Assembly: GCF_013752535.1 (NCBI RefSeq)
Contig: NZ_CP058348.1
Span: 2,356,001-2,420,000 of the forward strand
Direction: 5' to 3'
From: Bdellovibrio sp. KM01
GTDB taxonomy: Bacteria; Bdellovibrionota; Bdellovibrionia; Bdellovibrionales; Bdellovibrionaceae
DNA length: 64,000 nt
The translations under genes and the position numbers were made by a program. The notes below the pieces were generated by a model. The model searched no databases and was not told the origin of the DNA. It saw only the letters and a program-made list of their open reading frames with translations. This document shows positions 8,305 to 12,076 of this stretch, piece by piece (position 1 is the stretch's first letter; each line of letters begins with the position of its first letter).

Positions 8305-9504
8305 TCAATGACACTTGCTCGCATACCCCTCTAACAAAACTTCCATCGCGGAGACGTCGGCGCGCAATGGGATCAGGTGCTTTCTTAATTCGTCATACTC
8401 GCTTTGTTTTAATGAATCGTAACTTCGGCGGCTGGAAAACTTCCACGCTGGATGTTGAGTACACTGAGCGATACTTTTCTTTAAAGACTCGAGTTCTGTT
8501 TCGAAAAGATCCGAGCACTGAGAAATCTCTTCGGTGGTGAGATCATTCAACTGCCCTAATTCAGCCAGACACAGTAATTCAAGACGCTTTAACGCTGCGA
8601 CATCTCCATCCTGATAGGCTGCTTGAGTTCGTTGCCACTTTACTGAGGCCCACTGTTGGTATTCCAAAGACTGCCCGACAAGTTTATCGGGATGAAGCAA
8701 GCGCACGAGTTTGTGATAAGTTGTCCGCAATACAGTGTCAGCATCCGTTCGGCTTTCCTCCAGGGCTTCGTCGCGTTCGTTGTCAGAAATAACTTTTTGC
8801 CAGAATTTCTTAAGATGCATTGGCATATTGTGCAGGTATCGTTGGCGATAGCTGGGATCGGCACTTTTCCAGACTCTGCCTAAAAGATGCCAGTCGCCGC
8901 ACTTGATAGTGATTTGCAGGCTTTCTTTAAATAAACGATAGCCTGCAGTCGGATCTGCCAGATGCTGCTCTATTTTCTGGTTATCGATGTCACTCAGATA
9001 ATGATAGACCGAGCGCGCCGTGCGCTTGAGCCCACTTAAGGCCGAATCGTCCCTGAAAAATATTTCGGCAAAGTCCACGCGTTCGGCAGATTCCACCGCA
9101 GGATTTTGAGCTCTCGGTAGTGATTGCGTTGCGGATTCGTATCGCGTTTTTCGCAAGTTATCGATGACGTACTTCCACATATCATCGCCACACTGATACT
9201 GCCCTTCCTCTTCTTTCAGCATGGCATAGGCTTGTGCTGGCGATACATTGGAGGTCGTTGCGACGTAATTAAGATGCACTTGAAAGGTGTTCAAAATCTT
9301 TTGGCGCCTTTCGAGTGCTTCAATTTCTTGCAACTCCTCCCGGAAAGTGAGCTTACGCCAGTCGTGATACATCATCTGATCACACAACAGAAAATCGGCA
9401 TGATCTTTTTCAAGTTTGCGGATTTTTTTAATAAGTTGGCTCGAAGTCGAAAACAATTCAGTGCGAATTTTTTGATCATCCGCTTTTTGTAAATCATGTT
9501 GCAT
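8305..9504 (-). CDS. J-domain-like protein of unknown function
   Basis: 399 residues, charged and largely helical, with no signal peptide or membrane segment. The N-terminal 80 residues look coiled-coil (QLIKKIRKLEKDHADF, QEIEALERRQKI). Around 262-274 the stretch YHKLVRLLHPDK has the helix II-HPD layout of DnaJ J-domains (HPD at 271-273), followed by a helix consistent with helix III. The family resembles DnaJ-like proteins in which the J-domain sits away from the N-terminus. It would be expected to stimulate a DnaK-type ATPase, but the rest is unrecognised. It is convergent with the TIGR02147 gene and has no operon partner. Confidence 0.75.
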   Translation of the reverse strand: MQHDLQKADDQKIRTELFSTSSQLIKKIRKLEKDHADFLLCDQMMYHDWRKLTFREELQEIEALERRQKILNTFQVHLNYVATTSNVSPAQAYAMLKEEEGQYQCGDDMWKYVIDNLRKTRYESATQSLPRAQNPAVESAERVDFAEIFFRDDSALSGLKRTARSVYHYLSDIDNQKIEQHLADPTAGYRLFKESLQITIKCGDWHLLGRVWKSADPSYRQRYLHNMPMHLKKFWQKVISDNERDEALEESRTDADTVLRTTYHKLVRLLHPDKLVGQSLEYQQWASVKWQRTQAAYQDGDVAALKRLELLCLAELGQLNDLTTEEISQCSDLFETELESLKKSIAQCTQHPAWKFSSRRSYDSLKQSEYDELRKHLIPLRADVSAMEVLLEGYASKCH

Positions 9505-9690
9505 AAGGGACGAGCTTTTATCACGTCAGAGGATCACTCAGAATCAAAAAGCAGTTTCTGCCAAATCAATCCGCAGCGAGCGCTTAATGCGTGTGCAGTT
9601 TTTGTGAGCGAGACTTTGTTGTGCTGAAGAACTGTGCGAGTGCAGATTATAAAATAGGCACCAGGATTTTGTGGTTTAAAAAATGCAAAA

Positions 9691-9715
9691 GCGACTCTTG
9701 CTTTCGCAAGGTCGC
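9691..9715. terminator. bidirectional terminator-like hairpin
   Basis: GCGAC, a bulged T, CTTG, loop CTTTCG, CAAG, GTCGC, flanked by AAAA on the left and a CTTTT on the right. On the minus strand it is followed by TTTTGCATTTTTT, on the plus strand by CTTTTGG. The right part of the hairpin is also one arm of the inverted repeat 9700-9713. Confidence 0.55.
9700..9713. repeat. left arm of a 14-base inverted repeat
   Basis: GCTTTCGCAAGGTC here is exactly the reverse complement of 9966-9979. The two arms bracket the 34-codon ORF and the hairpin-rich sequence after it. Confidence 0.7.
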
Positions 9716-9720
9716 CTTTT

Positions 9721-9756
9721 GGACGGCCTCTCTTCCGAATTTCGCGAAGGAGGTCC
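9721..9756 (+). promoter_or_regulatory. hairpin covering the ribosome binding site of the 34-codon ORF
   Basis: GGAC (9721-9724) pairs with GTCC (9753-9756), CTC (9728-9730) with GAG (9750-9752), and CTTC (9732-9735) with GAAG (9746-9749; one G shared at the edge). The paired 3' side contains the full AAGGAGG. This would hold translation down unless the hairpin is opened, as in several type I toxin mRNAs. Confidence 0.5.
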
Positions 9757-9758
9757 GA

Positions 9759-9863
9759 ATGAATAACCACAACTGTTGTTCTTATCGGCAGATTTTAAAA
9801 CTAATAAAGCAGATTCTCCTGGTACTTTTGGTTTTAATCAGAATAATCAAAGAACTGCTGTAA
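9759..9863 (+). CDS. 34-residue hydrophobic peptide (possible type I toxin-like small protein)
   Basis: ATG at 9759 to TAA at 9863. A consensus AAGGAGG lies 5 bases upstream, far better than most starts nearby. The peptide starts polar (MNNHNCCSYRQ) and continues as one helix of isoleucine, leucine and valine broken by lysine and arginine (QILLVLLVLIRIIKELL), so it could be an amphipathic or membrane peptide. Its ribosome binding site is in a hairpin and a 14-base inverted repeat flanks the unit. These traits resemble type I toxins, but I see no sequence match to a named family and have not identified an antisense RNA promoter. It may also be a chance ORF with a good start site. Confidence 0.5.
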   Translation: MNNHNCCSYRQILKLIKQILLVLLVLIRIIKELL

Positions 9864-9965
9864 AGTTCGAATCTTATACCTCTGGAACGTTTCTGTTTGT
9901 TCCCTAGCTGGATTTCCAGCCAGGACCAAGGATGGGACTGAAAATCCCGCGGATGAGAGCGCCAT
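9864..9965. other. hairpin-rich non-coding stretch, possible small RNA
   Basis: Within about 100 bases there are three local hairpins: GGAAC/GTTCC, GCTGG-ATTT-CCAGC and GGGA-CTGAAAA-TCCC. Downstream a GC-GAAA-GC tetraloop falls inside the right repeat arm. No known riboswitch or housekeeping RNA fits. It may be the 3' untranslated part of the small ORF mRNA or an RNA of its own on either strand. Confidence 0.3.
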
Positions 9966-9979
9966 GACCTTGCGAAAGC
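9966..9979. repeat. right arm of the 14-base inverted repeat
   Basis: GACCTTGCGAAAGC, exact reverse complement of 9700-9713. It lies 9 bases beyond the recG stop codon. Confidence 0.7.
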
Positions 9980-9988
9980 GCCAATGTG

Positions 9989-12076
9989 CTACGCAATAGA
10001 AGCTAGAGCCGCGGGACCATGCTCGCGCAGCAGTTCTTGTTTCATGGGACGGTTGTCAGGCCAAACGAGAGTTGGATCTTTTTTAAGGACCTCGAAGGCA
10101 GCTTCGCGGGCTTGTTGCAACAACTCCATGTCACGCACTAGGTTCGCCATTTTAAAGCCAGCAAGTCCTGATTGACGAGTTCCCATGAACTCCCCCGGGC
10201 CGCGCATTTCTAAATCGAATTCAGAAATTTTAAAGCCGTCGTTGGTTTTCTCCATGAACTCGGTACGCTGTTTACCCTCTTCGGAAACGGCGTAGCCCAT
10301 GATCAAAATACAGAAGGACTTGTGCTCGCCCCGACCCACACGACCGCGAAGCTGATGCAGCTGGGACAAACCAAAACGCTCGGCATGTTCGATAATCATG
10401 ATGTTGGCATTCGGGACGTCGACACCGACTTCGATTACGGTTGTGGAAACCAGAACTTGAATTTCATGACGACGGAATTGATCCATCACCTGATCCTTTT
10501 CATCGGGCTTCATTTTTCCATGCAGCAAACCGAATTTAACCTTCGGGAATTGAGCTTTCAATTTTTCAAACTCTTCCACGGCATTTTTCAGATCAATTTT
10601 TTCAGATTCTTCCACCAGTGGATAAACGAAATAGGCCTGACGACCTTTTTGCAATTGCTCAAGCATGAACTGCAAGGCCTGCGAGCGTTTGTTTTCAAAA
10701 ATCGCACGGGTTTGAATTGGACTGCGACCTGGAGGCATTTCGTCAATGATCGAAACATCCAAGTCTCCATACACTGTCATCGCCAAAGTTCTCGGGATAG
10801 GTGTTGCTGTCATGACCAAAAAGTGTGGTGAGTTGCCTTTTCTTTTTAAAATGCCCCGCTGTTCAACACCGAAACGATGTTGCTCGTCGATGATGGCAAG
10901 CCCCAGATTTTCAAATTCCACTTCGTCTTCGATCAAAGCGTGAGTTCCGATGATCAAATCTGTATCACCCGTTTTAAGGTCGAAAAGAATCTGCTTTCTT
11001 TCGGCGGCTTTGGTTTTTCCGACCAACAAAGACAGACGAATCCCCAAAGGTTCCAAAACTTTTTTAGCATTTTTAAAATGTTGCTCGGCCAGAATCTCGG
11101 TTGGCGCCATCAGGCAAGATTGGAAACCGCTTTCAGCTGCGTACACTGCCGCCATAAAGCTTACCAAAGTTTTACCGCTCCCCACATCGCCTTGAACCAG
11201 ACGATGCATGGGGTGACCGGCTTCCAAGTCAGCTTTGATTTCACCAAAGACGCGCTTTTGCGCGCTCGTTAATGGAAATGGCAATGACTTTTCCAAGGCC
11301 GCGACTTTTGCACCATCGTTATTAATCAGTGGCGCAGTTTCCTTCTGAAAACCTGATTTTTTAGCAGCCAAGAAAAGCTCCAACCAAAAGAACTCTTCGA
11401 AAATCAAACGACGTTGAGCTGCACTTTTAAACTCTACATATTCTTGCGCACGATCCGGCAACGGATGATGGATTTCCATCAAGGCATCTTTGCGGGATTT
11501 CAAATTATACTTTTCGCGCATCCATTTTGGCAGAGTCTCTTCGGGCCATTCTTCGATTTGCGCGAAAGCGGCACGCACCAGCTTCATGATTTTCGCGGTC
11601 GCAAGGCCTTCGATCTCTGTGTACAACGGAATCAAGGCATCCTGATTTTCTTCATCGCCTTCGATGTCACGAATGTCGGGATGATGAAATTCTAAACGAC
11701 CACGGTATTCGGTCACTTTGCCGACAACACGCACTTCGGAAAAAGGTTTGAAGCGTTCAAAGTAGCCTTTGTAAGGCACACGAAAATATTTGCAGTGAAT
11801 TTGTCCAGAGGCATCGCGAACTACGACATCATACATTTTGCGAGTTGAGCGCCCCATATTGACACTGTGGACAGCTTGCACCGTGGCCTTGATACTGACA
11901 ATATCGTCCGGTTTGAGACTGGCAATGTTACGAGCCGCCCTTTGATCTTCGAAGGCTCGCGGATAAAACTCAAAGAGGTCCCTTAAGGTTTTCAAGCCCT
12001 TGCGCGCGAACAGGTCTCCCAGTTTGGGACCCACCCCTTTTAAGTACATAATTTGCGTATCTAGACGAAGGGCCAT
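9989..12076 (-). CDS. recG: ATP-dependent DNA helicase RecG
   Basis: Branch-migrating helicase that remodels stalled forks and recombination intermediates. The 695 residues are full length. An N-terminal wedge/OB region (about 1-250, with YPRAFEDQR) is followed by helicase motifs: Walker A GDVGSGKTLV, the DEQH box in DEQHRFGVEQR, motif III MTATPIPRTLAMT and motif VI QLRGRVGRGEHKS. The C-terminal RecG signature FKMANLVRD is present. It is divergent from the HD-GYP gene, sharing a short intergenic region, and its 3' end abuts the inverted-repeat cassette. Confidence 0.97.
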   Translation of the reverse strand: MALRLDTQIMYLKGVGPKLGDLFARKGLKTLRDLFEFYPRAFEDQRAARNIASLKPDDIVSIKATVQAVHSVNMGRSTRKMYDVVVRDASGQIHCKYFRVPYKGYFERFKPFSEVRVVGKVTEYRGRLEFHHPDIRDIEGDEENQDALIPLYTEIEGLATAKIMKLVRAAFAQIEEWPEETLPKWMREKYNLKSRKDALMEIHHPLPDRAQEYVEFKSAAQRRLIFEEFFWLELFLAAKKSGFQKETAPLINNDGAKVAALEKSLPFPLTSAQKRVFGEIKADLEAGHPMHRLVQGDVGSGKTLVSFMAAVYAAESGFQSCLMAPTEILAEQHFKNAKKVLEPLGIRLSLLVGKTKAAERKQILFDLKTGDTDLIIGTHALIEDEVEFENLGLAIIDEQHRFGVEQRGILKRKGNSPHFLVMTATPIPRTLAMTVYGDLDVSIIDEMPPGRSPIQTRAIFENKRSQALQFMLEQLQKGRQAYFVYPLVEESEKIDLKNAVEEFEKLKAQFPKVKFGLLHGKMKPDEKDQVMDQFRRHEIQVLVSTTVIEVGVDVPNANIMIIEHAERFGLSQLHQLRGRVGRGEHKSFCILIMGYAVSEEGKQRTEFMEKTNDGFKISEFDLEMRGPGEFMGTRQSGLAGFKMANLVRDMELLQQAREAAFEVLKKDPTLVWPDNRPMKQELLREHGPAALASIA

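Follow-up and report, generated by a model that had tools for sequence, protein, structure and literature searches.

The window analyzed here, i.e., the whole stretch of 64,000 nucleotides of Bdellovibrio sp. KM01 DNA, belongs to a closed 3.96-Mb genome in which a single copy of the unit considered below is present. The unit is flanked by recG (9989-12076, minus strand) and by a further minus-strand gene (8305-9504) whose match is only weakly DnaJ-like (E 0.022, below the cut-off). Between the two lies an ORF on the plus strand (9759-9863), which opens with ATG and encodes a basic, hydrophobic peptide of 34 aa, as the preliminary description had stated. The Shine-Dalgarno (SD) sequence AAGGAGG is read in the sequence at 9747-9753 of the same strand, and an exact inverted repeat of 14 nt (9700-9713 and 9966-9979), with 252 nt separating its arms, lies around the ORF. 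In the predicted fold of the strand from 9670 to 9990 (321 nt) these arms pair together, with an energy of -108.1 kcal/mol versus -81.6 for shuffled sequences (z -5.0). The inverted-repeat pattern is unique in the window even on allowing two mismatches, in agreement with the earlier observation that no similar arrangement is seen elsewhere in it.

The unit had additionally been described as bracketed by this repeat. The exactness of the repeat stands, whereas a symmetric bracketing does not, as the alignment has the element beginning ~45 bp to the left of the left arm and stopping a few bases to the right of the right arm. The left arm also contributes one strand to a local hairpin (9686-9718), which belongs to a terminator of the antisense strand (see below), and for this reason, too, the bracketing is not symmetric. 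A second, 11-nt exact inverted repeat (9850-9860 and 10028-10038), which links the ends of the peptide ORF and recG, may be due to chance, and a 78-aa GTG-start ORF running antisense across the leader (9534-9770, minus strand) is without a family match and is probably spurious.

An insertion polymorphism and a peptide family of Bdellovibrionales

Comparison with related genomes delimits a whole cassette at 9655-9988 (BLAST and alignment, with edges uncertain by several bases), which is missing in two relatives. In the sister genome G012, the BLAST match ends at 9654 and restarts at 9989, such that 7 bases replace ~330 bp between flanks that are 90% (left) and 87% identical; in G022, the match ends at 9639 and restarts at 9990. 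This presence/absence pattern could reflect either a gain here or losses in G012 and G022, no test of polarity having been made. Tandem or near copies are found on G017 contig 10, G004 contigs 24 and 33, and G074 contig 12. No clear target duplication was seen at the junction, which was read by eye at one site, and no mobility gene was seen with the cassette. The left arm starts ~45 bp inside the insert, so that the inverted repeats do not lie at both of its ends.

The same small ORF, set behind the same leader, recurs among relatives, and a DNA search of 99 of these gave matches in 18, some of them multi-copy. In the order, a profile derived from 11 peptides found matches in 58 of 140 genomes (E<=0.1). 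A 62-member profile, applied to 368 genomes of the phylum, found them in 47 (E<=0.001), all in Bdellovibrionales and with several copies in some genomes; within the genus, the peptide profile matched 17 of 24 genomes (E<=0.01). After further loci were fetched and two alternative starts removed, 77 units were assembled, in all of which (77/77) an SD is present by selection, as the scan required it. The exclusion of nine damaged or odd loci left 68 intact peptides of 31-44 aa, with a mean net charge of about +5.7, which like the window peptide are basic and hydrophobic. The conserved features of this family are an R-R/Q-x-L motif, a K and a hydrophobic run; the Leu positions are encoded by five codons, which indicates that selection acts on the peptide. 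AlphaFold2 predicts a single helix for the 34-aa peptide (residues 4-33, mean pLDDT 85.8), and the peptide is amphipathic (moment 0.53-0.58). At L004, L031, L010 and L064, truncated ORFs stand behind intact leaders, and these look like instances of toxin decay.

A known peptide family was ruled out by database searches: none of the 62 family members matches Pfam, one matches NCBIfam at E 0.04 only, and two PHROGs families are each matched by one member (E 0.016 and 0.084). A known RNA family was similarly ruled out, Rfam giving no match at the gathering threshold and, in an E-value search, three matches with scores far below gathering. A tblastn search of plasmids and phages with the window peptide (E 0.1) found no match, a 34-aa query being insensitive. 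Further, a pattern search of genome contigs returned 42 stretches, among which only those of Bdellovibrio (L123, L126, L135, L149 and L159) look real, and the remaining ones look as expected by chance.

A search of 138 genomes with a covariance model restricted to the leader (from -27 up to the start codon) produced 139 matches in 43 of them; for 103 of these matches, a peptide-profile match follows directly on the same strand. When only genomes left out of both models are counted, the leader is found directly upstream of 22 of the 24 peptide matches. Overall, 140 peptide matches and 139 leader matches, with 103 in common, amount to ~170 loci. Of the 36 leader-only matches, 20 were read by eye: in ~16 the encoded peptide is diverged but of the family's type, the others being short or degenerate. 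A leader model based on sequence alone (R1) mixed two registers, so that RNAalifold detected no pair in it, and was dropped for a version (R2) with the stem entered by hand.

Folding of the predicted mRNA

The predicted toxin-like mRNA is ~280 nt in length (9698-9981, plus strand), its bounds being the predicted +1 and the 3' arm, with the true 3' end unknown. By its predicted fold, covariation and duplex energies, the inverted repeat is the long-distance helix of this mRNA, with the left repeat arm as its 5' arm and the right repeat arm as its 3' arm, both on the plus strand. After removal of four units lacking a C in the -12 column, the first 24 nt of the predicted transcript were paired with the 3' region in 73 units, giving a mean of -25.8 kcal/mol for a unit's own 3' region and -18.65 for swapped partners. 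The own pairing falls in the best 10% for 53 of the 73 units and is unremarkable (rank >0.10) in 20, which are partly truncated or rearranged copies. The corresponding values were obtained for 20 further units that had not been used before, taken from 22 held-out paired units (-28.7 versus -18.5 kcal/mol, 17/20 in the best 10%), and for 20 of the 36 leader-only units (-24.8 versus -18.8 kcal/mol, 10/20 in the best 10%); L234, which is cut by a contig end, was omitted.

Fifteen units in which pairing is weak or distant were set aside. The remaining 58 have 5'UTRs of 55-65 nt and 3'UTRs of 63-164 nt, and the helix is present in the predicted fold of 57 of these, which are a selected set. In an alignment of 30 of the 58 transcripts, RNAalifold found both the helix and the SD hairpin unprompted. 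Pairing in the helix extends to 90.3% of the alignment cells, as compared with at most 58% in slid-partner controls, and there are 68 two-sided changes against 23.1 in shuffled alignments (0/500). The arms are wholly different in sequence among copies with their complementarity retained, and this covariation rules out a chance repeat. Arm pairing, SD hairpin and peptide are all kept across divergent relatives and are more than chance. The preliminary description would have been refuted by a lack of conservation of the peptide in relatives or by a repeat found only here; both points are answered by the search of relatives, in which the peptide is conserved and the repeat design is not confined to the window.

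The proposal that AAGGAGG is hidden by pairing within its own 5' hairpin is supported by a predicted local hairpin (9724-9757, plus strand), in which the SD pairs with an upstream anti-SD. This hairpin is retained in the alignment, with 86.2% of its cells paired. In the full-length mRNA of the window (L001), the SD has a computed probability of 0.04 of being unpaired, and the computed means over the 58 units are 0.18 for full-length, 0.14 for 3'-trimmed and 0.14 for nascent forms. As the SD is equally hidden without the 3' arm, the long-distance helix by itself is not what closes it, and a function of that helix as an SD switch is ruled out.

Alignments of the 3' region reveal two conserved 3'UTR elements on the plus strand, ACCTCTGGAACGTTTCT (9878-9894) and GGACCAAGGATGGGACTGAAAATCCC (9923-9948), the role of which is unknown. 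The conserved element at 9923-9948, GGACCAAGGAYGGGACTNAAAATCCC, occupies the same place in most units and forms a hairpin with a 7-nt loop, CUNAAAA, which may resemble a tRNA anticodon arm; MRK-type units have a different but related fold in place of this hairpin. The segment just past the stop codon, at 9878-9894 in the window and in units generally, contains a CCTCC-like stretch that could be a second anti-SD for the Shine-Dalgarno sequence. Only 22 of the 58 units have a sense terminator immediately past the 3' arm, versus 18% of shuffles, and this leaves the 3' end of the mRNA unexplained. In L003 (~1810-1870), a leader-like hairpin lies directly past the 3' arm and is perhaps the remnant of a second unit.

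Promoter-like elements of the two strands

The plus strand carries a sigma54-like element, GG (9673-9674)-N10-GC (9685-9686), which is recognized as conserved sequence only, any promoter activity being inferred. Column counts in the 77 units are G 62 and G 67 for the GG, and G 73 and C 73 for the GC; the bases between them are variable, and the sequence further upstream is without conservation. An intact GG in a strict alignment column, a count which runs below the single-column ones, is found in 51 of 73 units, the other 22 being without it, and in 36 of another 40. Promoters of the sigma54 type have the -24/-12 spacing of GG-N10-GC and start 12 nt after the C. The start predicted for the window, 9698, is 12 nt past the C and 2 bases ahead of the helix, and a sigma54 gene is present in the genome. 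No sigma70 promoter was found on the plus strand between 9400 and 10200.

On the minus strand, an intrinsic terminator (9678-9718), comprising a hairpin (9718-9686) and a T run (9683-9678), overlaps the sigma54-like element. Such antisense terminators (<= -15 kcal/mol) are a recurrent feature of the family, being found in 63 of the 77 units; the sense strand has one in 19 of 77, and the rate in shuffled sequences is 0.9%. Within the ORF, there is a FliA-like promoter (9783-9808, minus strand) with a -10 CCGATA (9788-9783) and a weak -35 TTTAT (9808-9804), whose activity is again inferred. The interval from this promoter-like element to the terminator defines a predicted antisense RNA of ~95 nt (9680-9775, minus strand; ends approximate, no transcript data), which spans the entire leader, the SD and the start codon and is a candidate antitoxin.

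The base preceding the conserved Arg codon is a T in all 77 units, and the codon itself is CGG in 60, CGA in 14, CGT in 3 and CGC in none; among 132 Arg codons of six window genes, CGC is the commonest (56) and CGG the rarest (4). This invariance at synonymous sites points to a further signal overlapping the ORF. The minus strand at this codon reads CCGA followed by A or T, with TTTA(G/A) ~16 nt upstream. In Bdellovibrio bacteriovorus, an attack-phase promoter consensus of TTAAG-N16-CCGATA has been mapped in 92 of 140 promoters (PMC3627812). The ORFs match this consensus at 8.57 of 11, versus 7.76 and 7.92 for synonymous recodings (0/20 sets each), an excess that is modest, and the spacer is 15 or 16 nt in 64 of 68 ORFs. 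About half of the units have CCGAAT instead of CCGATA, and the window's own -35 is poor.

The flagellin upstream regions of the genome showed no clear shared FliA motif and were unusable as a local FliA standard. A stretch upstream of a flagellin gene, L094, reads CTTTAG..CCGATC with nearly the spacing of the units' antisense element, other flagellin upstream regions being without a clear arrangement of this kind. In the whole genome G000, GCCGATAA occurs 162 times versus 66 for the backwards pattern, which fits a large FliA regulon.

A probable toxin-antitoxin-like module and its alternatives

The preliminary description had named two possibilities, a type I toxin gene or a small mobile cassette. 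Both together are supported by the comparison of genomes, with toxicity inferred rather than demonstrated. The toxin-like side is represented by the basic hydrophobic peptide family, the sequestered SD, the covarying 5'/3' helix and the overlapping antisense signals, and the cassette side by the ~330-bp insert missing at this site in G012 and G022 and by copies at unrelated places, some of them in tandem. We consider it likely that the unit combines the two, as a ~330-bp insertion cassette of Bdellovibrionales which carries a type I toxin-antitoxin-like module.

In such a module, a sigma54-type promoter, if it works as inferred, would give rise to an mRNA of ~280 nt, itself inferred, the first ~16 nt of which would pair with the last ~16 nt to form a closed, stable and nuclease-shielded RNA. 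A separate local hairpin would conceal the SD and render the mRNA untranslatable when made, and the end-to-end helix would protect and store it in this inert state. The antisense RNA, whose existence is likewise an inference, would start at the FliA-like promoter in the ORF and end at the terminator over the sense promoter; lying over the leader and start codon, it would, by an inferred neutralization, block or destroy any opened mRNA. An unknown and equally hypothetical opening step (trimming or refolding) would make the mRNA translatable. Should the antisense RNA be absent and the mRNA opened, the 34-aa helix would be made, enter the cell's own membrane and stop growth. This toxicity is inferred from the character of the peptide, the layered silencing and the occurrence of truncated ORFs whose leaders have been kept.

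Alternatively, the antisense RNA and the folded mRNA could control a small membrane peptide that is regulated but has no self-toxic action, such as one tuning a membrane enzyme under stress or in the life cycle. Toxicity data are lacking, the genome has just one copy, the unit is missing from sister genomes and therefore not essential, and the amphipathicity of the peptide also suits a regulatory role. However, layered silencing, many paralogues, tandem copies and truncated ORFs with kept leaders make up the usual picture of toxin genes, and we regard this alternative as unlikely. Far less credence is due to a MITE-like non-autonomous transposable element, in which the repeat would be a transposase binding site and the ORF incidental. 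Such an element would agree with a discrete ~330-bp insertion and multiple copies per genome, but it is at odds with a left repeat arm that is not terminal, a target duplication that is not clearly visible and a peptide conserved with varied Leu codons. Further, a transposon end would not require the complementarity that the arms retain while differing fully among copies. It can also hardly be the case that the antisense RNA, or a trans-acting dual-function RNA, is the main product and the peptide secondary: the highly conserved 3'UTR elements, which a toxin model leaves unexplained, would speak for such an RNA, but the conservation of the peptide is strong and independent of the leader.

In its design, the toxin-antitoxin-like module favored here comes closest to aapA/IsoA, a type I toxin-antitoxin family of Helicobacter. 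In its predicted form, it shares with this family a small peptide ORF with several chromosomal copies, a stable mRNA whose 5' and 3' ends are joined by a long-distance interaction, a cis-overlapping antisense RNA with its -10 box inside the toxin ORF, and SD-sequestering hairpins (PMC6733600). The 5'-3' interaction is conserved among copies of the module, as one aapA/IsoA criterion asks; another, an SD sequestered within the long-distance form, is not met, as it is a local hairpin that hides the SD of the module. Unlike aapA/IsoA, the module combines a sense promoter of sigma54-type appearance with an antisense promoter of FliA-type appearance and comes from a different phylum, and no sequence relation was found in Pfam, NCBIfam and Rfam searches, a direct comparison with AapA not being included. 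The mRNA is made translatable by 3' trimming in aapA/IsoA (PMC6733600) and opened by a structural rearrangement in timPR (PMC11228461). Among the features of a type I system, a hydrophobic peptide of fewer than 60 aa is present, and a primary mRNA with an occluded SD is obtained by computation. The module would thus behave as such systems do, but it is not assigned to them here, given that toxicity and neutralization are only inferred and that it is not the long-distance helix which gates the SD.

With hok/Sok, the module as predicted has in common paired mRNA ends, a translationally inert full-length form and an antisense RNA over the leader (PMC6733600). It differs in that no overlapping leader ORF was seen and no Pfam similarity of the peptide was found; further, hok/Sok is plasmid-borne, whereas the module consists of chromosomal cassettes. 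The tisB/istR-1 and zorO/orzO systems resemble the module as predicted in having chromosomal hydrophobic peptides of ~30 aa, a hidden ribosome binding site and an RNA antitoxin; they differ from it in that their antitoxins are divergent trans-acting sRNAs. An end-to-end helix of the module's kind is not claimed for these systems.

The family is large and apparently undescribed. For B. bacteriovorus HD100, eight attack-phase intergenic sRNAs have been reported, and the accessible text of this FliA regulon study does not mention a type I module (PMC3627812). No title or abstract found on toxin-antitoxin systems or small RNAs of Bdellovibrio or Bdellovibrionota describes such a module, subscription journals being thinly covered, and the same applies to the titles and abstracts found on type I systems with sigma54/RpoN. 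An account from 2025 confines the known type I systems to Proteobacteria, Firmicutes, Tenericutes and, as a new addition, cyanobacteria (PMC12390103). With a large family in Bdellovibrionales, their range would come to include predatory bacteria, and an independent case of the closed-mRNA design would be provided, with facing sigma54- and FliA-like promoters. Additionally, the ORFs at the ~170 loci are not covered by the family libraries that were searched.

The antisense element resembles the HD100 FliA attack-phase consensus TTAAG-N16-CCGATA in having a 15-16 nt spacing (PMC3627812). It is possible, though only tentatively put forward, that the antitoxin RNA is transcribed by FliA, the attack-phase sigma factor, and the toxin mRNA by sigma54, with the module thereby wired to the predator life cycle. 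The two promoters would then converge on ~45 bp holding the sense promoter, the antisense terminator and the 5' arm of the helix. Were this wiring true, exit from the attack phase would stop the supply of antitoxin, and the cassette would consequently be a life-cycle checkpoint or an addiction device. Whether an RNA-based toxin module obeys the switch between attack and growth can be put to a concrete test with this module.

Three units, L037, L068 and L070, adjoin on their upstream side another short repeat, TTTTTTCGCG..AGCCCCGAAGGGG..GGCAGGA..GCC, exactly at the position expected for the sigma54-like element; as the repeat occupies this site, these units look promoter-less or re-promoted. 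A stretch similar to the TTTTTTCGCG..AGCCCCGAAGGGG repeat occurs in the 3' region of L018. Finally, L081 and L082 (G004 contigs 24 and 33) are tandem arrays of a diverged subfamily, which is without the GG-N10-GC element and the antisense terminator and which has kept the end-to-end helix.
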